Below are positions 23,815-36,165 of a stretch of DNA of 64,000 nt, piece by piece (positions within the stretch are counted from its first letter, which is position 1; each line of letters opens with the position of its first letter). The notes beneath the pieces are model-generated. The model did not search any database and had not been told where the DNA came from. It saw only the letters and a list, made by a program, of their open reading frames with translations. Position numbers and translations under genes: made by a program. Source of the DNA: Sphingobacteriaceae bacterium (lineage in GTDB: Bacteria; Bacteroidota; Bacteroidia; B-17B0; Aurantibacillaceae); the NCBI GenBank assembly GCA_002319075.1, contig NVQB01000001.1, positions 1,798,001-1,862,000 of the forward strand, written 5' to 3'.

Positions 23815-26562
23815 TTATTGAGCTTGTGCAGCTTCCAATGTTACTTCGATTTTTACATTTTCAGAAGCTCCACCACCACTAATACCAAAATCGTTGCGAT
23901 TGATGGTTGTTTCGCCATTAAAACCAATTACATTCGCTTTAACCTCTTCACCTTTGGCATTCCAGGTACTACCCGGAGTTGATCCTACATAATTAAATTT
24001 AAGATCCACATCTTTGGTAACACCTTTTAAAGTTAATTTTCCATGTGCTGTGTAAGCAAATTCGCCACCTTCATTTTTCACGATATCATTTGCTTCAAAA
24101 ACAGCTTTTGGATTTTTTGCAACATCAAAATAATCGGCTTTATCTTTTAAGTGTCCATCACGCATAGTATTTTGAGTAGTTAAAGAAGCCATGTCCATGC
24201 GGATATAAATCTTAGCGCCTTGCGGGGCGTCAAAATGAACACTACCGCTGTCTACGCTAATAGTTCCGCGTGTATCACTAATAACGTGTTTTACACTGAA
24301 CGCAACTGAAGAGTGAGCTCCATCAACACCATAAACACCTTTTAAATCAGCAATATCAGCATTCGCTGCAGCAGCAGCTGTACTATCCGTTGCAACTACA
24401 ACGTTTTGCGTGTCGCTACCTACTTTGTTATCAGTACCAGTCATAGCAATGTAAGGCGCGATAACTAAAGAAACGATACTCATTAATTTGATCAGGATAT
24501 TCATAGATGGTCCGGAAGTATCTTTGAAAGGATCACCCACAGTATCACCTGTTACAGAAGCTTTGTGCGGCTCCGATTTTTTGTAGAACATTTCTCCATT
24601 AATAAGAACGCCTTTTTCAAAAGATTTTTTTGCATTGTCCCATGCACCACCGGCGTTACTTTGAAAGATTCCCATTAACACACCCGACACGGTAACACCT
24701 GCTAACAAGCCACCTAAAACTTCTGGTCCGAATACAAAACCAACGAGAACCGGTGTAATTAAAGCAATTGCACCTGGCATCATCATTTCGCGGATAGAAG
24801 CTTTTGTAGAAATAGCAACACATTTTTCGTATTCTGGTTTTGCTTTGTACTCCATAATTCCCGGAATTTCACGGAATTGACGACGTACCTCCTGAACCAT
24901 GTCCATAGCCGCTTTACCAACCGCCTGAATACACAATGCTGAGAAAATAAAAGGAATCATTCCTCCCACAAATAAGCCTGCCAATACAGGAGCTTTGTAA
25001 ATATCGATAGCATCAATACCTGCAATACCAACAAAGGCTGCGAATAAAGCCAACGAGGTTAAGGCTGCAGAAGCAATCGCAAATCCTTTTCCTGTAGCCG
25101 CCGTAGTATTTCCTACCGCATCTAAATTATCGGTACGTTCACGCACTTCAGGAGGTAGTTGGCTCATTTCTGCAATACCACCGGCGTTGTCAGCGATAGG
25201 ACCGAATGCGTCAATAGCTAATTGCATTGCTGTTGTAGCCATCATACCAGCCGCCGCGATAGCCACACCATATAAGCCAGCGCAGTAGTATGAACCCATA
25301 ATACCCGCAGCTAAAGTTAAGATCGGAATAACTGTAGACTTCATACCTACTGATAAACCACCGATAATGTTAGTAGCGTGACCTGTAGAAGATTGTTGAA
25401 TAATAGACATTACCGGAGGTTTTCCCATTGCAGTGTAATATTCCGTAACAATACTCATTATAGCACCAACAACCGTTCCTACCACAATTGCTCCAAAAAC
25501 GTTGATACTTGAAAATTCATACCCACGCAACATTAGTTTTTCAGGTAACATCCACATCACAATAAAATAAGAAGCTACAACTGTTAGAAGCATAGAAGCC
25601 CAGTTACCCATGTTTAAAGCGTTCTGAACATTTGATTTTTCATCTTTAATAGTAACGAACCAGGTTCCAACGATAGAGAAAAGAATTCCTAAACCGCAAA
25701 TAACCATTGGTAACAAGATTGGTGACATACCACCAAAATTATCTTTCACAATAATCTCTTGTCCTAATACCATAGTAGCAAGAATTGTAGCCACATAAGA
25801 ACCAAATAAGTCGGCTCCCATTCCTGCAACGTCACCCACGTTGTCACCTACGTTATCGGCAATAGTAGCAGGATTACGAACGTCATCCTCAGGAATTCCT
25901 GCCTCAACCTTACCTACTAAATCCGCTCCAACGTCAGCAGCTTTAGTATAAATACCGCCACCAACACGGGCAAATAACGCGATAGATTCAGCTCCTAAAG
26001 AAAAACCAGTTAACACTTCAATAGCTGTCTTCATGTGAAGCACATCTACTACACCGTCGCCGCCAATAACATTAAATGCTTTTAAGAAAACTATAAATAA
26101 ACCTCCAAGACCTAAAACTGCTAAACCTGCAACACCGAGACCCATAACAGTTCCACCAGTGAAGGAAACTTTTAAAGCTTGTTTTAAGCTTGTACGAGCT
26201 GCCTGTGTGGTACGAACATTAGCTTTAGTAGCCACTTTCATACCAATGTATCCTGCAGTGGCAGAAAACACGGCGCCAATAATAAAAGAAATTGATATGA
26301 TCCAGCTGGAGTGGATGGCTATGCCATTCACCTCATGTACTGTTCCTGAATAGGCTAATAACGCCGCTGCAAATACAACGAAAATGCTTAATACTTTCCA
26401 TTCTGCTTTTAAGAAGGCCATTGCTCCATCGGCAATATAACCGGCAAGCTCCTGCATGTTCTTATCACCTGCATCTTGTTTACTTACCCAGGCAGATTTA
26501 ATTGCCATCACTATTAATCCAACAATCCCCAGAAGCGGGACTAAATAAATAACATTATTCAT
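23815..26562 (-). CDS. hppA: Membrane-bound ion-pumping pyrophosphatase fused to a YceI domain
   Basis: A 915-residue protein in one open frame. Residues 1 to about 705 are a membrane pyrophosphatase (16 helices expected) that couples pyrophosphate hydrolysis to H+ or Na+ export: [20 protein letters not shown] in the middle, [25 protein letters not shown], and [17 protein letters not shown] near the end. The Ala in GNTTAAT points to the K+-dependent class. After the last helix ([16 protein letters not shown]) comes an Ala/Thr linker (about 706-740), then about 175 residues of YceI-type beta-barrel: [55 protein letters not shown]. The C-terminus of such pumps faces outward, so the YceI part would sit in the periplasm. 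The fusion is unusual to my knowledge. Confidence 0.93.
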
Positions 26563-26778: not shown

Positions 26779-28305
26779 ATGAAACGAATCATTTTCGCCT
26801 TCTGTTGTTTTTTATTCTCCGGCTATTTTTATTGCCAGGATACAAGAATAAGTTGGGGACCTGATCTTTTTAAACCGAGAAAATCAGACATAATCCAAAT
26901 TATAGGTTCGGATCAGAATTCTTTTTATTGCCTGCGTAGTTTGAAATTATTTTTTGGTACCGGTACTTCGCTCGAAAAATATTCCATTTCTAAACTGAAG
27001 CTTGAGTACATTAAAGAGTTTAAACTTCCCAATATAAATAACAGTGAACTTAATTTCGAAAAGATTTTTTTTATGAAGGGGGTTTTGCTGGTATTTGCAT
27101 CGGCTTATGACAAAGCGAGGGATCAAAAAGTTCTTTACCTTGAAAAAATCGATGCTGCAAGTGGCACTGTTTCGACTCCTTTTGAAGAAGTTGACGCGAT
27201 TAAAGCAGCTAAACATCGCAATGAAAGTTCCTTTAACTTCACGCCTTCATGCGACAGCAGCAAAATTCTTATAAGCTATACAGAGTTCGTCGAAAAAGCT
27301 GTCAATCCTAAGCTTCACTTTAAACTCTTAACTGGTCAGGGAATGGTGCTCTGGTCGTCGGAGGTCGAATTTCAAAACAAAGAAAAATTCTATTCAGTTT
27401 TAAACTGCCAGCTCGATGAAGATGGCAAAGTCTTTTTACTAGCAAGTACAGTAACGCGACCATCGCAGCCCGATAAGGAAAAACCTGAAAATGCCCACTC
27501 CCTTTTGATTTATAACTATCCGGAAAAAAGATTCAAAGAACTCGATATTTCTCTTAATGATCAATTTATAAGCGCCATAGATCTTTTAGTAGTTGCCAAA
27601 AAAACGCTGGTTGTTGCAGGGCTTTATGCGAATAAAAATCAGTATAAACATGCTGGTACATTCTTTATGAGCATTGACAGAAGAAGCGGACAAATTATTA
27701 CGCGGGGACAAGACAATTTTCCCAAAGAATTTTTAATGGGATTTACATTTGATAATGATCCCGAAAAAGAAAACGAATTGTACAACTACAGGATCACTGG
27801 CATGATTTCAAAAAACGATGGCGGCATTTATCTTTTAGCAGAACAGTATTACGTACAAACCGAAACTACCTATCATTCGAGGATGGCGGTGAGTAGTTTA
27901 AATCATTATTATTTTAACGATATCGTGGTAGTTAATATAAGTCCTAATTCTTCTATCCGTTGGGCAAAAAAGATCCGCAAACTACAGCATACCATAAACG
28001 AGGAGGTCAACTATTCTTCCTATTCTTATTTTGGTTCCGAAGAAAAACTGCATTTTATGTATAATGATCATCCTAAAAACATTTCGTCAAAAACAAAAAG
28101 ACTCAGAGATGGCATCGGAAAAAATATGACGACCGTTATTACCTCTGTAGATGCGAATGGTAATTCTGAAAGCTATTCTATTTTCAAACCCACAGAGTTA
28201 AAAATGCACGTAAGACCTAAAACGACCATAACTTTGGCCTCAAACCAATTTCTATTTTATTCCTTTAGAAAAAAAGAATCCAAATTTGGCATCATTCATT
28301 ATTAA
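26779..28305 (+). CDS. Secreted protein of unknown function
   Basis: A 508-residue protein with signal peptide MKRIIFAFCCFLFSGYFYCQ. The rest has regularly repeated beta segments (LKLLTGQGMVLWSSEVEF, EDGKVFLLASTVT, KTLVVAGLYANKNQYKHAGT, NDGGIYLLAEQYY), suggesting a propeller or other all-beta fold. No T9SS C-terminal domain and no lipobox are seen. A near-consensus box TATCTTTA lies 13 nt before the ATG. It starts 217 bp from the divergent hppA. Confidence 0.6.
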   Translation: MKRIIFAFCCFLFSGYFYCQDTRISWGPDLFKPRKSDIIQIIGSDQNSFYCLRSLKLFFGTGTSLEKYSISKLKLEYIKEFKLPNINNSELNFEKIFFMKGVLLVFASAYDKARDQKVLYLEKIDAASGTVSTPFEEVDAIKAAKHRNESSFNFTPSCDSSKILISYTEFVEKAVNPKLHFKLLTGQGMVLWSSEVEFQNKEKFYSVLNCQLDEDGKVFLLASTVTRPSQPDKEKPENAHSLLIYNYPEKRFKELDISLNDQFISAIDLLVVAKKTLVVAGLYANKNQYKHAGTFFMSIDRRSGQIITRGQDNFPKEFLMGFTFDNDPEKENELYNYRITGMISKNDGGIYLLAEQYYVQTETTYHSRMAVSSLNHYYFNDIVVVNISPNSSIRWAKKIRKLQHTINEEVNYSSYSYFGSEEKLHFMYNDHPKNISSKTKRLRDGIGKNMTTVITSVDANGNSESYSIFKPTELKMHVRPKTTITLASNQFLFYSFRKKESKFGIIHY

Positions 28306-28374: not shown

Positions 28375-29850
28375 ATGGAGCATTACGATCTAATAGTTAT
28401 TGGCGGGGGCCCCAGTGGTTATGCAGGAGCCATGCGCGCAATCGATTTTGGGAAAAGAGTTTTACTCATCGAAAAAAGAAGAATTGGCGGCGCAGGCGTT
28501 TACGACGGTGTACTCACTTCTAAAACCTTATGGGAACAAGCATTAAAAACAGCGTCTATCCGCGAAATGATTCCTGATTATGAAGTTAATTTTGATAGCA
28601 TAAAAGAAATTGTAAATGCTGCGGTTTATGAACGCAAAACCCAAATGACACTTCATTTACAGCTACTTCATACCCTTCCCAAACAACTTTTTACTTATGA
28701 AAAAGGCTTCGCTTATCTGCTTGACAAAAACACGGTAAGAATAACCAAAGAGGATGGTAAAACAAAAGAAGTAAGCGCAGATAATATTTTAATTGCAACA
28801 GGAAGCCGCCCCCGTATACCGGCCAACATTGAAGTGGACGAACAAACTATTGTTACTTCAGATGGTATAAAAAACTTTCCTTCCTTTCCAGACAGCATGG
28901 TAGTTTTGGGAGCTGGTGTTATTGGTTGTGAATTCGCTACTATTTTTTCGGCTTTTGGAAAGACGAAAGTTTTTTTGATTGATAAGGCAGACCGCATTTT
29001 ACCTTTTGAAGACGAAGATGTAGCTGACGTGGTAAAAAACAATCTTCAGCTCCAGGGCGCAGAAGTTCACCATGGCGCATCTTTAAAACGGATGGAAATT
29101 AAAGACGGTAAAGTTGAATACGAACTCGAATATAAAAACGGAAGTACTGAAATCTTAACAGTTGATAAAGCCTTGATCTCTGTGGGACGTGTGCCCAATG
29201 TAGAGAATCTTGGGCTTGAAAATGCAGGAGTTAAATTAAACGATCGCGGCAGTATCTGGGATGATGACACACAAACCAATATCAGCAATATTTATGTGGC
29301 TGGAGACGTAACAACTGAAGTGGCTCTTGTTAACGTGGGTGAAAGAGAAGCTCGTCATGCTGTAGTCAGAATGTTTGGCCCCACAGTTAAACCACTTTCG
29401 TATAAAAACATAAGCACTATTATGTTTCTCAATCCTGAAGTTGCCTCTGTGGGAATGAGCGAGCAAGAATGCGTTTCAAAAAACATTCCTCATAAAGTAG
29501 TGAAACTGGATTATACTATAAATGCCCGCGCCATTGCTATGCGCAAGACAACCGGTTTTTTTAAAATTATTGTGACTAACGACAACGGCATGCGCATACT
29601 TGGCATGCGTGTTGTGGGTGAACACGCCAGTAGCGCTATTCAGGCGGTTGCTTACTTAATTTACACTAACCAGGGCATTCGCGATCTGGCCGATATGATG
29701 CATCCTCACCCGAGTATTACCGAGGGTGTGCAGGAATGTTTACGTATGCTCCTGAACAAATCAATTTATAAACCCTATGTGTTTAAAGACCGCTTAAAAT
29801 GTTTTGTATGCGAGAATGGAGTCTGCACGCCTATTGAAAGCCTTGTGTAA
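28375..29850 (+). CDS. Flavoprotein pyridine nucleotide-disulfide oxidoreductase, dithiol absent
   Basis: A 491-residue member of the lipoamide dehydrogenase / soluble transhydrogenase family. The FAD site is VIGGGPSGYAGAMRA (about 8-22); the NAD(P) site is VVLGAGVIGCEFATIF (about 179-194); NIYVAGDVT is the second FAD contact; HPHPSITEGVQE near 440 carries the C-terminal His-Glu. Where the redox pair CxxxxC should be, the sequence reads GGAGVYDGVLTSKTLW, with no cysteine. The protein ends in FVCENGVCTPIESLV, a short Cys-containing tail (three Cys in KCFVCENGVC). It may use NAD(P)H and FAD without a disulfide, as SthA does, or pass electrons to a partner through the tail. No lipoyl-dependent complex genes are adjacent. 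Confidence 0.8.
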   Translation: MEHYDLIVIGGGPSGYAGAMRAIDFGKRVLLIEKRRIGGAGVYDGVLTSKTLWEQALKTASIREMIPDYEVNFDSIKEIVNAAVYERKTQMTLHLQLLHTLPKQLFTYEKGFAYLLDKNTVRITKEDGKTKEVSADNILIATGSRPRIPANIEVDEQTIVTSDGIKNFPSFPDSMVVLGAGVIGCEFATIFSAFGKTKVFLIDKADRILPFEDEDVADVVKNNLQLQGAEVHHGASLKRMEIKDGKVEYELEYKNGSTEILTVDKALISVGRVPNVENLGLENAGVKLNDRGSIWDDDTQTNISNIYVAGDVTTEVALVNVGEREARHAVVRMFGPTVKPLSYKNISTIMFLNPEVASVGMSEQECVSKNIPHKVVKLDYTINARAIAMRKTTGFFKIIVTNDNGMRILGMRVVGEHASSAIQAVAYLIYTNQGIRDLADMMHPHPSITEGVQECLRMLLNKSIYKPYVFKDRLKCFVCENGVCTPIESLV

Positions 29851-29902: not shown

Positions 29903-31441
29903 ATGAACAAAAGGCTTTTTACTTTTATCTCCATTGCTTTCTCACTTGCTTTGCTGGTGCTTATTTGTTTTCAGGTATACTGGATCAGAAAAGATTATCT
30001 CGTGCGCGAAGAATTATTCAAAAGCAAAGTAGACGATGCTTTAAACAGTACCAATATTAAATTAGAAAAATTAGATCCGCGTTCGAGCTATACAAAAATC
30101 ACAGAGCGCATACAGGGTATTAACCGTCCAGATTTTAAAGGAAGTAAAAAACTAGGATTTAGTGTAAAGTCTGAATTCAGCATCGACACTAATGGCCACC
30201 AGGTTAGTGTGTTCAGCCAGAACGATCTGGCCAGCGACTCCTCCATTAAATTTGATGCCTCGTCGGCCAGTTTTTTAAATTATATTCGCAAACAACAATC
30301 ACAACTTCAGTCTTCTCCAAATGACCTTTCTTTTCAGAATTCCGGCAACAGCGTGTTTGAACTCACCAATACCAAAACTTATTACCCTAACCGGAGACAA
30401 AAAATAGACACACTGCTTTTAGATTCTATTTTAAAAACAGAATTAAAAAGAAGAAAAATTCTTACAAAATTCAATTACTACCTTACTTCACTTTACCCCG
30501 GAAGTCCTCACCACAGCGACCTTAAGCAGGCCGAGAATATGTCGGATTCTTTAGGTGTAGAGCATTACATTATTAACCTTGCTCCAAATAATACATTTAT
30601 AAATCCTGAATACCTCATCGTCTATTTTCCTACACAAAACCGCGATGTATTTAAGCAAATGTGGCCTTTTTTAATTACTTCCATTGTAGTGATTCTTATT
30701 CTTACCGTTTCATTTTATTATATTATGGCCAGCAATTTAAAACAGAAAAAATTGTCGGTGATCGTAAATGACTTTATCAGTAACATGACCCATGAGTTTA
30801 AGACGCCAATTAGTACTATTTCGTTAGCTAGTGAAATGCTGGGGGATGAAAGCATAGCTCAAACTCCGGAAAAGAAATTCCGGTATATTAAAATGATCCG
30901 CGATGAAAATAAACGTTTGAGTGTTTTAGTAGAAAGTATTTTACAAACTTCTATTCTTGATAAAGGAGAGTTTAAATTAAAACCAAGTGAGGTTGACGTG
31001 CATGAAATTATTAATACTGCATTAAATAATACACATCTTTTAATCAACCAGAGAAAAGGAACTGTACATACTTTTTTAAAGGCGCAGAAATTTAAACTTC
31101 AGGCAGATAGAGTGCATTTGACAAATATTATTTTTAACCTTATTGATAATGCGATAAAATATTCCCTGGATGTTCCTGAAATTACCGTTTCTACTTATAA
31201 TACCGCCGAAGGCATTATGATTCAGGTAAAGGATAACGGCATGGGCATCTCCAAAGAAAATCAAAGAAAAATCTTCGACAAATTTTACCGCGTTCCTACA
31301 GGCAATGTGCACAATGTAAAGGGCTTCGGCCTTGGCCTATCATACGTTTTGGCAGTGGTAGTAAAACATGGCGGCACTATTTCAGTGAATAGTGAAGTGG
31401 GTAAGGGCAGCACTTTTAATGTTCATTTGCCAATCTCATAA
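29903..31441 (+). CDS. Membrane sensor histidine kinase (RprX-like)
   Basis: A 512-residue kinase. The first transmembrane segment is at about 6-27 and the second at about 252-275 (FLITSIVVILILTVSFYYIM), framing a periplasmic sensor of about 225 residues. The cytoplasmic part has the phosphoacceptor NMTHEFKTPISTISLASEML, an N box NLIDNAIKYS, G1 DNGMGIS, and G2 GFGLGLSYV. It is followed 70 bp later by a response regulator, so the pair is a complete two-component system, like RprXY of Bacteroides. The signal sensed is unknown. Confidence 0.9.
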   Translation: MNKRLFTFISIAFSLALLVLICFQVYWIRKDYLVREELFKSKVDDALNSTNIKLEKLDPRSSYTKITERIQGINRPDFKGSKKLGFSVKSEFSIDTNGHQVSVFSQNDLASDSSIKFDASSASFLNYIRKQQSQLQSSPNDLSFQNSGNSVFELTNTKTYYPNRRQKIDTLLLDSILKTELKRRKILTKFNYYLTSLYPGSPHHSDLKQAENMSDSLGVEHYIINLAPNNTFINPEYLIVYFPTQNRDVFKQMWPFLITSIVVILILTVSFYYIMASNLKQKKLSVIVNDFISNMTHEFKTPISTISLASEMLGDESIAQTPEKKFRYIKMIRDENKRLSVLVESILQTSILDKGEFKLKPSEVDVHEIINTALNNTHLLINQRKGTVHTFLKAQKFKLQADRVHLTNIIFNLIDNAIKYSLDVPEITVSTYNTAEGIMIQVKDNGMGISKENQRKIFDKFYRVPTGNVHNVKGFGLGLSYVLAVVVKHGGTISVNSEVGKGSTFNVHLPIS

Positions 31442-31511
31442 CAAATGTTAAAATTGTTAAAATGGCACGTTAAGTGTTTATCTTTAATTAATAATTTAAC
31501 ATTTAGAACGA

Positions 31512-32213
31512 ATGGAAACTGTTAAAACAAAAATCTTATTGGTAGAAGACGATCCAAGTCTTGGGCCTCTTTTACAAGAATATTTAGATGCGAAGGGTTT
31601 TGAAACAAAACTAGCTGATGATGGAAAAAAAGGTGGCGATTTGTTTTTTAAAGGATCTTTCGACCTTCTTTTGTTAGACGTTATGATGCCCGTTAAAGAC
31701 GGATTAACTTTAGCGAAGGAAATACGCGTTGTAGATAAAAACGTTCCTATTATATTTCTCACTGCCAAAAGCATGAAAGAAGATACAATTGAAGGTTTTA
31801 ATGCCGGGGCGGACGATTATATCACCAAACCTTTCAGTATGGAAGAGTTAATGGCGCGTGTAACAGCTGTGTTAAGACGTACAAATAAAGTACGTTCTTC
31901 AGAAGGAGAAGACATTGACTTTAAGGTTGGTAAATACCAATTCAATTCTGAAAAACAAATTCTTCAACATAATGGAGTAGAACAAAAGTTGACTACAAAA
32001 GAAAGTCAATTGTTGCGCCTTTTATGTATTCATAAAAATGATGTACTTGATCGTACCTTTGCTTTAAAATCGATCTGGCACGACGATAACTATTTTAATG
32101 GTCGTAGCATGGACGTATATATTGCGAAATTGCGTAAATACCTGAAAGACGATCCTAAAGTTGAGATCATCAATATTCATGGAAAAGGGTTTAAATTATT
32201 AGTGAATCAATAA
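31512..32213 (+). CDS. OmpR-family response regulator (RprY-like)
   Basis: A 233-residue regulator. Receiver domain at 1-120: acidic pair VEDDPS near 11-16, phosphoacceptor D56 in LLLLDVMMP, Thr in FLTAKS, Lys in YITKPFS. The winged-helix DNA-binding domain occupies about 135-233, ending in the recognition part NGRSMDVYIAKLRKYL and INIHGKGFKLL. It partners the kinase encoded just upstream. A TATCTTTA box lies 25 nt before the start, so it may also be transcribed on its own. Confidence 0.92.
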   Translation: METVKTKILLVEDDPSLGPLLQEYLDAKGFETKLADDGKKGGDLFFKGSFDLLLLDVMMPVKDGLTLAKEIRVVDKNVPIIFLTAKSMKEDTIEGFNAGADDYITKPFSMEELMARVTAVLRRTNKVRSSEGEDIDFKVGKYQFNSEKQILQHNGVEQKLTTKESQLLRLLCIHKNDVLDRTFALKSIWHDDNYFNGRSMDVYIAKLRKYLKDDPKVEIINIHGKGFKLLVNQ

Positions 32214-32283: not shown

Positions 32284-35200
32284 TTATTTCAGGAGCGTTA
32301 CTTCGCCAATTTTATTATAAACCTGCCCGTTCAAATCCTTATAGTTCAATCTAAAAATATACGTGTCATTTTTTAAAGGATCATCGCCCTTATTGTTCAG
32401 TGTGCCATCCCACCCAATAAGGTAGTCGCCAGTTGTAAATATTTGTTTCCCCCAGCGATCGAAGATTTGGAGACTGTAATTTTTTGCATCCAAACCATAA
32501 GGTGAGAACACAGGTTTAAAAAAATCATTTAGCCCATCATAATTAGGAGTAAAAGAATTAGGAATATACACCTCAAAAATATTCTTCACATCAACAATTT
32601 TACTGATTTCAGATTTACAATCGTAGATGTTAGTCGCGTTTAACGTTACCTTATATTTTCCTGCCTGCGGAAAATAAACGAGGGGATTAACGTCATACGA
32701 CTGATTTAGCCCTTCAATAGTCCATTTATAGCGGTTACTATAAAGATTTGTACTGGTATTATTAAACAAAACATCAGGGTTTGCAATCGTAATCTCTTCA
32801 GGAGAAATAATAAAATCCGCTATCGGACTTTCCAGAACTTTAATTTCATTTAAAACTACCTGCGTGGAACACCCTAAAGCATCTCTATCTGAATAATTAA
32901 AAACAACCGTGTAGGTGCCGGGAGTTTCAAAAAGATGATCGGGTTCAAATTTCTCTGTGCCCGTGCCATCGCCAAAGTTCCACGAATAAATTCCCGCCTC
33001 TTTAGCTGTTGAATTAAATGTTACAGAAAATGGCGCGCAACCTTTATATAAACTCCCCGATGCTTTAATTACCGGGACATTTTTTACAAGAATGTTTAGG
33101 GTTTTAGTATCCGGGCACAAAAAATAACTTGGGTTAGAATGTGTTTGATAAGTTACTGTATTAATTCCCTCATAAGCCTTCGCAGGATTAAACATTGTGC
33201 CTTCTACAGGCGCATCTCCAAGCCACGAACCACCTGGATTTTGAACAAGTCCGTTTAAATTAAAAGGAAAACTAGTTGAACAATAACTTGTTTCACCACG
33301 ATTTAAAAAATCTGCCGAAATAAATTCCTCTACTGAGATATGGAGTTGCGCGTCGGCAATACAAGGCCCAGAAGCTATACTGTAGCTTACTATATTATCT
33401 CCGATTTTAGCAAAGGCAGGATTAAATACTCCGCTTAAAGAAACAATATTAGAAATTGCTGCTGAAAATATGCCACCTACAGGACTTACCTCCAATTGTG
33501 AAGGCTGCGACTTATTACAAAATGGTCCGGCACTAGCAATTTTCGGAGTAGCCAAAGAAAATACATTTACACTTAAGGTTGAGTGATCAGGACATAAACC
33601 ACTTGGATAAGAGGAAGTATTATAGGATATAATAAAATTCCCGGCCCCGCTTAAGGCCGGATCAAAAGCTCCGCCAACGATTCCCGCACCGCTCCAGCTT
33701 CCAAGGTTGTTTTGGGTTATTGGAGATAAAATCATTTGGGGTGTGGTTGTGCAAAGATCAGGTACTGAGGCAATGATCTTAGAACTAACAAAAGGCTCGG
33801 TACTTATAAGTAATGTCTGCTGAGCATAACATGTATTTGTTCCAATCACATACTGCGCCGCATTCAGTCCGGCCGAACTGGCGGTAGGAGAAAAGACACC
33901 ACCAGGTGAAAGAAATATCGTAGGAACCCATTGCCCGGTTGCCGGCGTAACACTTAACTGAACAGGAGCATCTACCGAACAAAAAGGTCCCACCTGGCTT
34001 ATAACAGGCGTTGGTGGGTTTAGTACAGAAATTGTCATACTACGGCTATCCGGACATAATGTTGGATTAGGAGACGATGCATTGTCGTAAGTGACGGTAT
34101 AAATATCCGTAGAAAGATTGGCAGGAGAAAATAAACTGCTTGTAATAACACCCAGGCCGCTCCAGATGCCTGTGGTGCTCGTTGCATAACCCATTAAATT
34201 AACCGGATTATTACTGACGCACAAGGGTGGAACGCCTCCGTTAAAAGATGCGGTATTAAACCTGGAAACATGAAATGTGCTGGAAGAACTGGCCATGCAA
34301 GTGCCTATACCCGCCGCATAGGAAACCGTGTTGGTTCCCGGAACATTCAAGGAAGGCGTTTGAAGTCCGGAAGGTGAAACTCCCGTAGCGCCAGACCAAA
34401 CACCACCAGCCGGATTCGCAGTTAGCATAACGGTTTGCGCATTGGTGCACGTAGGTTGAATAACAGATATGGTTGGACTTGGTGGATTAAATAAAGGCAC
34501 GGCGAGCACAGTAAAATCGGGACAAACGGATGGATTCGGCGATGAGGTGGTGCTGTATGTGAGATAATAGGTACCGGTAGCAAGCGATAATGGATTAAAA
34601 TAATTTGTATCCACTTGTGTTCCAGACCATGTTCCTGTTAAGGTATTTTGCACAATGTTCATCAACTTTATTAATGGATCCTGCACGCAAACCAAATTGA
34701 GCGTGGAACTTAAAGCTGCTGAATAAAATTTTGAAACCGGCACCACAATGCTATTAGTAACAATACAGTTAGCCACGTTAACCTTGTATACAACAGTGCT
34801 TCCGGGGATAGCCGATAAAGATGGCGTGAAGTATCCGGTTAGGCTAACAGCGGGAACCCCTGTCCATGTTCCTCCTCCGGGCGTGGCTGAAAGTTGAAAG
34901 GCACTGAAGATGTCGCAGACAGGATTGGGCTGCACAATAAAAGGCTTTTGAGGATTATTTAGTGTAACCGTCATCACTTTAGTAACGGGGCATGTGGCCA
35001 TGGTACTAATAGGTGTTGCAGTGACACTGTAAACTAAAGTAGATAAACTTACACTGGCCGGTGCCAAAGGGGGCGTAAGCGTAATAGCATTGGCTGTAGC
35101 ATTTGACACACCCCCGCTTATACTATTCCAGGCATAATAATTTGAAGATGCAGCAGAAGATGGTGTAAAAGAAAGTGCTACACTAAAACTTGTGCCCTGG

Positions 35201-36000
35201 CACACAGAAGTTGCGGTAGGACTAATACTAAAATTGGGGAGAGGCACCACACTCGCCAAAACAACAGCCTGGCATGTTTGAGTATATGGACTTCCATTAA
35301 CTACTGCGCTGCTTGTAGCGGAAACCGTGAACATGGTGCTAACCGTTAAGTTTGAAACACTATTGTTAGCAGACGTAGAACTAAAACTCGGTCCTGACCA
35401 GGTATAAGAATTTACCGCAGTACTTGTACCGGGTCCTATTCCAAGCGTTACGCTCTGGCCCGCGCAAATGGGTGCCGACACAGTTGGAGAAACAACACAT
35501 ACGAATCCGCAATTAGTACTGGCGGCACCACTTCCAGAATTACTCTGGTTAAACGTTATTGTTTGATTTGTATTTGAAAAATTGGTAATGAGCATAATGT
35601 AAAACTCTCCGGGAAGTGCATTTGAAATGGTACAGGTTTCGGTATTCGATCCCGAATAGCTGCACGATTGAATGTTACCCGAAGTCAGGCTTCCGCAGGC
35701 ACCTGCAAGAGTAGGAAAAGGGCCCCAGCATATAAAATCAATGTCGTTGGCAGCCGACATATTTATAGACATAGATCCGGCGCTTGCCATTTGCATAAAA
35801 AACCAGGCTGGATTTGGTTCTGATCCGAGACAACCATAATCTGGACCTGATTGAGCTGAACCTGTATTTACTCCCGCAGGATAGCTCATGGTTTGCCCTG
35901 TACAAAAGGGCGCCGCATTTGAGCATGTGCTATTTTGAGAAAACAGCACCTGAACTTTCAAGCACATTAAAACCAGTATGGTTACCTTAATGAGTTTCAT
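32284..36000 (-). CDS. Giant repeat protein with PKD domain and T9SS type B (gliding-motility-associated) C-terminus
   Basis: I set the start at the ATG at 36000 (1238 residues), which puts MKLIKVTILVLMCLKVQVLFSQ at the front as a signal peptide; a longer frame to 36066 adds 22 residues before it. Counting from the long form, residues about 370-993 are four tandem units of about 156 residues, each with two halves carrying W-T/S-G motifs and an SPNPxxCPD-like ending. A PKD domain follows (SWNFGDGT), then a T9SS type B domain: VYIPNSFTPNYDGLNDFF, IFDRWGKQIFTT, GWDGTLNNKG. A large secreted surface protein, perhaps an adhesin, is inferred. Confidence 0.88.
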   Translation of the reverse strand: MKLIKVTILVLMCLKVQVLFSQNSTCSNAAPFCTGQTMSYPAGVNTGSAQSGPDYGCLGSEPNPAWFFMQMASAGSMSINMSAANDIDFICWGPFPTLAGACGSLTSGNIQSCSYSGSNTETCTISNALPGEFYIMLITNFSNTNQTITFNQSNSGSGAASTNCGFVCVVSPTVSAPICAGQSVTLGIGPGTSTAVNSYTWSGPSFSSTSANNSVSNLTVSTMFTVSATSSAVVNGSPYTQTCQAVVLASVVPLPNFSISPTATSVCQGTSFSVALSFTPSSAASSNYYAWNSISGGVSNATANAITLTPPLAPASVSLSTLVYSVTATPISTMATCPVTKVMTVTLNNPQKPFIVQPNPVCDIFSAFQLSATPGGGTWTGVPAVSLTGYFTPSLSAIPGSTVVYKVNVANCIVTNSIVVPVSKFYSAALSSTLNLVCVQDPLIKLMNIVQNTLTGTWSGTQVDTNYFNPLSLATGTYYLTYSTTSSPNPSVCPDFTVLAVPLFNPPSPTISVIQPTCTNAQTVMLTANPAGGVWSGATGVSPSGLQTPSLNVPGTNTVSYAAGIGTCMASSSSTFHVSRFNTASFNGGVPPLCVSNNPVNLMGYATSTTGIWSGLGVITSSLFSPANLSTDIYTVTYDNASSPNPTLCPDSRSMTISVLNPPTPVISQVGPFCSVDAPVQLSVTPATGQWVPTIFLSPGGVFSPTASSAGLNAAQYVIGTNTCYAQQTLLISTEPFVSSKIIASVPDLCTTTPQMILSPITQNNLGSWSGAGIVGGAFDPALSGAGNFIISYNTSSYPSGLCPDHSTLSVNVFSLATPKIASAGPFCNKSQPSQLEVSPVGGIFSAAISNIVSLSGVFNPAFAKIGDNIVSYSIASGPCIADAQLHISVEEFISADFLNRGETSYCSTSFPFNLNGLVQNPGGSWLGDAPVEGTMFNPAKAYEGINTVTYQTHSNPSYFLCPDTKTLNILVKNVPVIKASGSLYKGCAPFSVTFNSTAKEAGIYSWNFGDGTGTEKFEPDHLFETPGTYTVVFNYSDRDALGCSTQVVLNEIKVLESPIADFIISPEEITIANPDVLFNNTSTNLYSNRYKWTIEGLNQSYDVNPLVYFPQAGKYKVTLNATNIYDCKSEISKIVDVKNIFEVYIPNSFTPNYDGLNDFFKPVFSPYGLDAKNYSLQIFDRWGKQIFTTGDYLIGWDGTLNNKGDDPLKNDTYIFRLNYKDLNGQVYNKIGEVTLLK

Positions 36001-36165
36001 GAGTGCGTGTGATTTGTCTATTGGATCTTTGGGTAGTATAAATTTAGTAAAAATCCAATAAACCACTAGCCAAATCTAATTGAAATAGGCGAATTGACGA
36101 TTTTATTCGCTCATTGAAAGGCGAGGCCTGCTAAATAGTTAAATAACGGAATGGCGGTAATAAAA

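Follow-up and report, generated by a model that had tools for sequence, protein, structure and literature searches.

Sequence analysis of a distinct Bacteroidota clade of disulfide-less lipoamide dehydrogenase relatives with an optional cysteine pair on a predicted C-terminal hairpin

Results

The flavoprotein locus

The window, a 64,000-nucleotide stretch of contig NVQB01000001.1 from a Sphingobacteriaceae bacterium (assembly GCA_002319075.1), carries an intact open reading frame for a 491-residue flavoprotein related to lipoamide dehydrogenase (Lpd), with orthologues in the same genus and class. The features of this gene are listed here in window coordinates.

28375-29850, + strand: gene for the disulfide-less Lpd-like flavoprotein
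28384-28476, + strand: FAD-binding Rossmann motif GGGPSG, beta-1/beta-2, residues 4-34, with Gly10, Gly12 and Gly15 (the PF07992 match starts at residue 4)
28486-28536, + strand: degenerate redox loop GGAGVYDGVLTSKTLWE, residues 38-54, with Gly41 and Val46 at the usual Cys places (from alignment with E. coli Lpd, SthA and Gor)
28894-28995, + strand: NAD-binding motif GAGVIGCE with Cys185, and acidic Asp203 ending beta-2, residues 174-207 (from conservation counts)
29701-29739, + strand: His445-Glu450 dyad and Cys455, HPHPSITEGVQEC, residues 443-455 (from conservation in 154 members)
29767-29847, + strand: C-terminal tail, about residues 465-491, with a beta-hairpin predicted by AlphaFold2 and Cys476, Cys479 and Cys484

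In its own genus the gene has as neighbours a divergent H+-pyrophosphatase (PPase) gene and co-directional genes for a histidine kinase and a response regulator. The PPase of the window (23815-26562, - strand) is a membrane protein (PF03030) with a YceI-like domain (PF04264) fused to its C-terminal end, and no title among the literature matches listed mentions this fusion. YceI is in frame in 22 of 54 neighbouring PPase ORFs, most of the others ending at the edge of the locus, and it is missing from the PPase of locus L157, which is long enough, and from the copy in genome G018. In G018, a single case, the PPase without YceI lies next to a remnant of the flavoprotein gene; this joint loss is perhaps a coincidence, as L157 has no YceI and keeps the flavoprotein gene. 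Between the PPase and the flavoprotein gene lies a 508-residue ORF (26779-28302, + strand) with no Pfam match, a relative of which stands beside the family gene in at least L001, L034/L153 and L035/L156 of 198 loci (three genomes; many loci are short). The histidine kinase and response regulator genes (29903-32213, + strand) follow downstream and are co-directional with the family gene in many own-genus loci. They could control the flavoprotein gene, or they could be mere neighbours. Beyond them, 32284-36066 (- strand) encodes a Ser/Thr-rich protein of 1260 residues that looks secreted and has PKD-like stretches, as read from its translation.

We also looked at more distant loci, 104 of them at 70% identity or less, with near-duplicate genomes left unmerged. 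A CxxCxxCC-type protein, which we take to be YkgJ-like, is encoded divergently upstream in 24 of these loci (for example L203:5466-5951) and has no NCBIfam match at E 1e-20. In 17, there is a convergent gene with CxxCH motifs, presumably cytochrome c peroxidase-like. Apart from the pnt genes described below, the conserved neighbours in the family loci examined gave no function for the family gene.

Predicted fold, redox loop and nucleotide sites

Both Pfam domains are complete or nearly so in the window protein (Pyr_redox_2, positions 1-291 of 291; Pyr_redox_dim, positions 1-108 of 110). Its AlphaFold2 model has a mean pLDDT of 91.7 and aligns best with 6uzi_D (Z 44.2, rmsd 1.7, 455 residues); 50 structures among the matches listed, mostly Lpd, have Z values of 41.3 to 44.2. 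The window protein is predicted to have the overall fold of dihydrolipoyl dehydrogenase. The models are weaker around the dyad: block 441-450 has a pLDDT of 76 in the window protein, and in the homologue L068 four residues there fall below pLDDT 50.

The redox loop of the window protein reads GGAGVYDGVLTSKTLW and aligns with GGVCLNVGCIPSK of E. coli Lpd, the two Lpd cysteines being replaced by Gly41 and Val46. The CxxxxC of the family is thus absent, as the sequence-only reading had it, and none of 154 relatives has a Cys in the loop. The alignment also bears out the stated difference from E. coli SthA, whose loop (GGGCTHWGTIPSK) retains the first Cys. The further claim that the FAD, NAD(P) and C-terminal His-Glu sites look intact holds too. 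In addition to the Pfam domains, both nucleotide motifs are present, Gly10, Gly12 and Gly15 are invariant in 43 aligned members, and His445 and Glu450 (HPHPSITE) are kept in 154 of 154 relatives, where E. coli SthA has Tyr in place of His. Cys455 is found in 147 of the 154. Cys185 is present in 106 of 106 members of a set gathered without selection for GCE and in 154 of 154 of the larger set, the latter partly by selection because the search patterns and the filter include GCE. L209, which the GCE filter left out, has Ser at 185, no loop Cys, a Cys at the place of 476, and no 479/484 pair.

At residue 203, 144 of the 154 members have Asp, 8 have Glu and 2 have Asn, so the position is acidic in 152; the aligned residue of E. 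coli SthA is Asn. In this superfamily an acidic residue at the end of beta-2 of the second Rossmann fold favours NADH over NADPH, and Asp203 of the window protein points to NADH rather than NADPH.

The conservation of these sites bears on the idea that the protein is an Lpd paralogue that no longer catalyses and serves in binding or as a structural element. Loss of the disulfide would fit this idea, as would decay of the gene in G018; however, members as distant as about 42% identity still have both nucleotide motifs and the dyad, and we consider a dead enzyme quite improbable.

A distinct clade and its distribution

The best NCBIfam model for the window protein is lipoamide dehydrogenase TIGR01350, whose cut-off is not reached (366.6 versus 408.8 bits). 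The same holds for the models of SthA (NF003585; 294.2 versus 465), of the PRK07845/LpdA type (NF005883; 282.9 versus 479) and of MerA (278.9 versus 454.45), and the glutathione reductase model lies far below its cut-off. The clade has no NCBIfam model of its own among the matches listed (best 25 of 66). Given that the best profile is Lpd, loose annotation could misname the family. Three other full-length relatives are encoded in the window's own genome; each has CxxxxC, and their identity is 29-31%. A further match there is weak and partial. As these three Lpd-like paralogues have CxxxxC, the lipoamide job is covered in this genome.

We defined the family by a cut of 330 bits to the window protein, so the sampled relatives are near ones by construction. 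The cut is backed by a gap: the next-best match in the same-genus search, L044, has 34% identity, 228 bits and a CxxxxC. Orthologues with 67-92% identity are found in 34 of 36 same-genus genomes, one of them split over two contigs and one with an in-frame stop, and the gene is absent from the other two of the 36 examined, G005 (73% complete) and G018. In G018 only remnants lie between the conserved histidine kinase and PPase genes (a C-terminal piece with 68% identity and N-terminal pieces; locus L239, G018:C18, 2447-3031) and the middle of the gene is gone, which shows that loss does occur. At E 1e-100 the family is present in roughly one in four class genomes sampled (103 of 395, own included). 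In a sample of the phylum, a profile search at E 1e-110 finds it in 7 of 296 genomes, own included, three of which are outside the class. Given the decay in G018 and the patchy distribution in the class, the role of the family is dispensable. In a longer list, found with patterns that include GVxGCE or IMFLxPEVA, the best 80 named loci come mostly from Bacteroidota MAGs, including Crocinitomicaceae and Vicingaceae, and from Crocinitomix algicola. A plasmid collection contains no match at E 1e-80.

The 154-member set used for most counts was drawn from the 198 loci plus L210 and L211 and is non-redundant at 100% identity only; the GCE filter had been applied to L209-L211 and had removed L209. 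A motif filter removed eight of the 198 loci (L154, L164, L056, L062, L171, L007, L125 and L042). The loop is readable in five of the eight and none of these has a Cys there; the tail of L164 is free of Cys, and among the other seven, five tails can be read and contain all three cysteines.

We placed 26 sampled members in a tree together with seven references, namely four Lpd-like proteins of Bacteroidota and the E. coli proteins Lpd, SthA and Gor. The members fall on one side of a branch with 100/100 support; the placement of E. coli SthA and Gor is unsure, as long branches meet. On the evidence of alignments, profiles and this tree, these proteins appear as a distinct Bacteroidota clade of disulfide-less Lpd relatives, below the cut-off of every curated family that they match. 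Among the literature matches listed there is no paper on such a family, a weak negative given that subscription journals are thinly covered, and the available part of PMC6947548 contains nothing on it.

The tail cysteines and the predicted hairpin

The sequence-only reading had pointed to a cysteine cluster near the C-terminus, and Cys476, Cys479 and Cys484 are indeed found in the tail. AlphaFold2 predicts two strands here, 474-480 and 483-486 (block pLDDT 90 for 471-480 and 81 for 481-490), and predicts the same two strands for L068, a homologue without the Cys479/Cys484 pair. Most of the clade carries this putative C-terminal hairpin as an extra element. Its turn, Asn481-Gly482, is NG or DG in 96 of the 145 members that have a tail. 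Because the turn has two residues, a register reading of the predicted strands places Cys479 and Cys484 face to face.

The three cysteines differ in how widely they are kept. Cys476 is present in 141 of the 154 members, equal to 141 of the 145 with a tail, while Cys479 is found in 62 and Cys484 in 67. All three occur together in 54 members, Cys476 occurs alone in 72, the last two occur without Cys476 in three, and nine members have no tail. Four members with a tail are without Cys476, and one of these, L101, has a Cys one place on. Relatedness to the window protein matters: in the group at 70% identity or more (n = 51), 44 have all three, six Cys476 only and one Cys476 plus Cys484, and among the remaining 103 members all three are found in 10. 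In L164, which shares 70% identity with the window protein, all three are missing.

It had been suggested that the tail replaces the lost dithiol. Loss of the loop disulfide is clade-wide while the tail cysteines vary, and therefore the tail cysteines do not track that loss. When co-conservation of the tail cysteines with the loss of CxxxxC was checked in homologues, disulfide-less members without tail cysteines proved common, as the 54 of 154 with all three, the nine tailless members and L164 illustrate, and the replacement idea is ruled out.

We next analyzed how Cys479 and Cys484 vary together. Both are present in 57 members, neither in 82 (including the nine without a tail) and only one in 15 (n = 154). 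On a family tree built without the tail, Cys479 requires a minimum of 18 changes and Cys484 a minimum of 17. A likelihood test of dependent versus independent evolution gives D = 46.2 for the pair, a value reached in none of 47 simulations under independence (maximum 9.4). The own group (D = 28.1; 51 rows) and the rows outside it (D = 23.4; 94 rows) each show the signal. Six other pairs of tail columns give D values from 2.6 to 17.3, which may mean that some of the signal reflects general turnover of the tail. A sister-pair test, which is more conservative, did not reach 0.05: for the starred branches, 5.9 of 13 pairs go the same way, 0.5 the other way and 6.6 show no difference (median p 0.06), and the corresponding values for the reverse direction are 5.7, 0.5 and 3.8 of 10 pairs (median p 0.07). 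The claim of co-evolution is carried by the likelihood test and the simulations. Physical pairing of Cys479 and Cys484 is probable, the simplest form being a cross-strand disulfide or a near-contact, and the pair is optional. Against a disulfide stands that cytoplasmic proteins, to our knowledge, rarely keep structural ones.

Other roles for the tail can be weighed against the same data. Binding of a metal had been raised; this could be a structural zinc or an iron-sulfur cluster with a partner thiol, and three close cysteines (CxxCxxxxC) are present in 54 of 154 members. However, this gives three ligands only, the first Cys often stands alone and the last two are at times kept without it, and facing thiols, as cross-strand neighbours in a tight-turn hairpin, would suit a disulfide better than a metal site. 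Of all the readings weighed here we give metal binding the least credence.

A second possibility is a redox centre in trans, as in MerA or high-Mr thioredoxin reductase, with either Cys476 or the Cys479-Cys484 pair entering the flavin pocket of the partner subunit. The near-invariance of Cys476 in tailed members and the CxxxxC-like spacing of Cys479 and Cys484 are in its favour. When the structures are aligned, Tn501 MerA ends (464-465) at about residue 469-470 of the model, so that the hairpin begins a few residues past the place of the MerA tail cysteines. Nonetheless, the loop and the dyad are unchanged in the nine tailless members and in the four tailed members and L164 that are without Cys476. 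In mercuric reductase and high-Mr thioredoxin reductase, moreover, the tail cysteines work with an N-terminal redox disulfide that reduces them. The clade has no loop Cys to supply it, and our models are of the monomer. A redox centre in trans is, in our judgment, improbable. The tail may still be a redox switch, as had been suggested: Cys476 is kept in nearly all tailed members, and the Cys479/Cys484 pair co-evolves on a predicted hairpin.

pnt genes and the soluble transhydrogenase

The family could also be a Bacteroidota stand-in for the soluble transhydrogenase, in which hydride would be exchanged between NADPH and NADH via FAD at the same site, beside the proton-translocating PntAB. We regard this as possible, if rather unlikely. 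pntA is near the family gene in at least 9 of 198 loci (six distinct genomes with duplicates merged), a lower bound because many loci end short. In seven of the nine loci, from four lineages, pntA is co-directional and downstream: directly in L164, L039 (family f6) and L054/L115 (f25), and after one gene in L057, L060 and L198 (f38). In L176/L074, from one further genome, pntA is convergent with the family gene. The pntA of L164 exceeds the NF006942 cut-off (409.5 versus 383), the third pnt gene of this locus scores 418 bits with the PntB model NF006974, under the cut-off of 689, and PF02233 places PntB at matching positions in G041 and G060. In addition, a true SthA above the NF003585 cut-off is found in just 2 of 395 class genomes, and the motif GAGVIGCE is common to the family and E. 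coli SthA.

Other evidence disfavors a transhydrogenase. The acidic residue 203 argues against NADPH, and in G410, one of the two genomes with SthA, the family gene is present as well. CXXXXT and YXXXXE, which the available part of PMC9460512 describes as typical of soluble transhydrogenases, are both absent; according to the same part of this source, the C45A change in E. coli SthA lowers activity about tenfold. We looked for co-occurrence with PntB in the 395 class genomes as proof of a partnership and found none (56 of 103 genomes with the family versus 190 of 292 without; odds ratio 0.64, p 0.06), leaving the pnt adjacency in four lineages to stand alone.

Comparison with known relatives

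Lpd relatives without the disulfide are already known, namely SthA, LpdA and Irc15p. For instance, the available part of PMC6296175 describes Irc15p of Saccharomyces cerevisiae as having the Lpd fold with both redox cysteines gone and His-Glu kept, as in the clade. According to this source, Irc15p is reduced by NADH and in turn reduces ferricyanide, DCPIP, MTT and menadione, and none of the disulfides tested (PMC6296175, available in part). We count its richness in cysteines, 11 per subunit, as a further likeness to the window protein. Unlike the clade, Irc15p is a whole-genome-duplication copy of yeast LPD1 with Tyr and Ala in place of the cysteines (same part of PMC6296175). If both cysteines lost and the dyad kept are taken as the criterion, the clade would be Irc15p-like, with Irc15p compared by description only and descent left aside. 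In a second example, the LpdA type (PRK07845, NF005883; PDB 1xdi) is a relative with an incomplete disulfide that, according to the same part of PMC6296175, reduces quinones and is without one Cys and without the dyad; the window protein has lost both cysteines and kept the dyad.

SthA (NF003585; E. coli b3962) shares with the window protein the fold, FAD, the lack of a disulfide and GAGVIGCE, and differs in CXXXXT, Tyr for His, Asn at the end of the NAD beta-2 and the lack of a tail. The window protein lies outside SthA, below the family cut-off and apart in the tree. Dihydrolipoyl dehydrogenase (TIGR01350; PDB 6uzi, 1ebd) is nearest in fold and has the best profile, with His-Glu and the acidic NAD residue in common; the window protein differs in having no CxxxxC, a score below the cut-off and the extra C-terminal hairpin. 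Finally, mercuric reductase (MerA; C558/C559 in PDB titles) and high-Mr thioredoxin reductase have C-terminal tail cysteines, as does the window protein. The clade is not a new category; rather, its combination of features is unusual, with both cysteines lost, the dyad kept, and a putative hairpin with an optional co-evolving Cys pair.

Discussion

Based on the conserved sites and the predicted fold, the reading that we favour, with some confidence, is that the clade comprises NADH-dependent FAD enzymes that would pass electrons from the flavin directly to a non-disulfide acceptor and may carry an optional hairpin disulfide. The protein is presumed to be cytoplasmic and dimeric by analogy with Lpd. 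NADH would reduce FAD as in Lpd. Since there is no dithiol to relay electrons to a disulfide, FADH- would hand them straight to a small acceptor other than a disulfide, in the pocket above the flavin. His445 and Glu450 from the partner subunit may act as the acid-base. In the subset that includes the window protein, a disulfide between Cys479 and Cys484 could form reversibly and adjust stability or activity; such a disulfide would be an accessory and not the catalytic redox centre.

By analogy, a quinone or some other low-molecular oxidant is the likeliest acceptor, with NADP+ (transhydrogenation) as the second choice. A quinone-type acceptor comes first because Irc15p reduces menadione and dyes and LpdA reduces quinones. 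Against this choice, in vitro quinone reduction is a common side reaction of flavoproteins, and the genes nearby give no hint of a quinone; the most informative neighbour, the pnt operon, speaks for NAD(P)H metabolism. A bolder version would have a hairpin thiol of the partner subunit (Cys476, often with Cys479-Cys484) act as the switch or relay of an NADH-dependent enzyme that, together with PntAB, sets the NADH/NADPH balance in Bacteroidota without SthA, and would make this a new type of flavoenzyme. We consider this version speculative and very improbable.

About a quarter of the sampled class genomes thus carry an Lpd look-alike without the residues for Lpd chemistry. Given that the class is nearly without SthA, the family is a candidate for part of NAD(P)H balancing or for quinone reduction. 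The co-evolving Cys pair on the predicted C-terminal hairpin may in turn serve as a cheap and testable example of a flavoenzyme whose thiol switch is optional.
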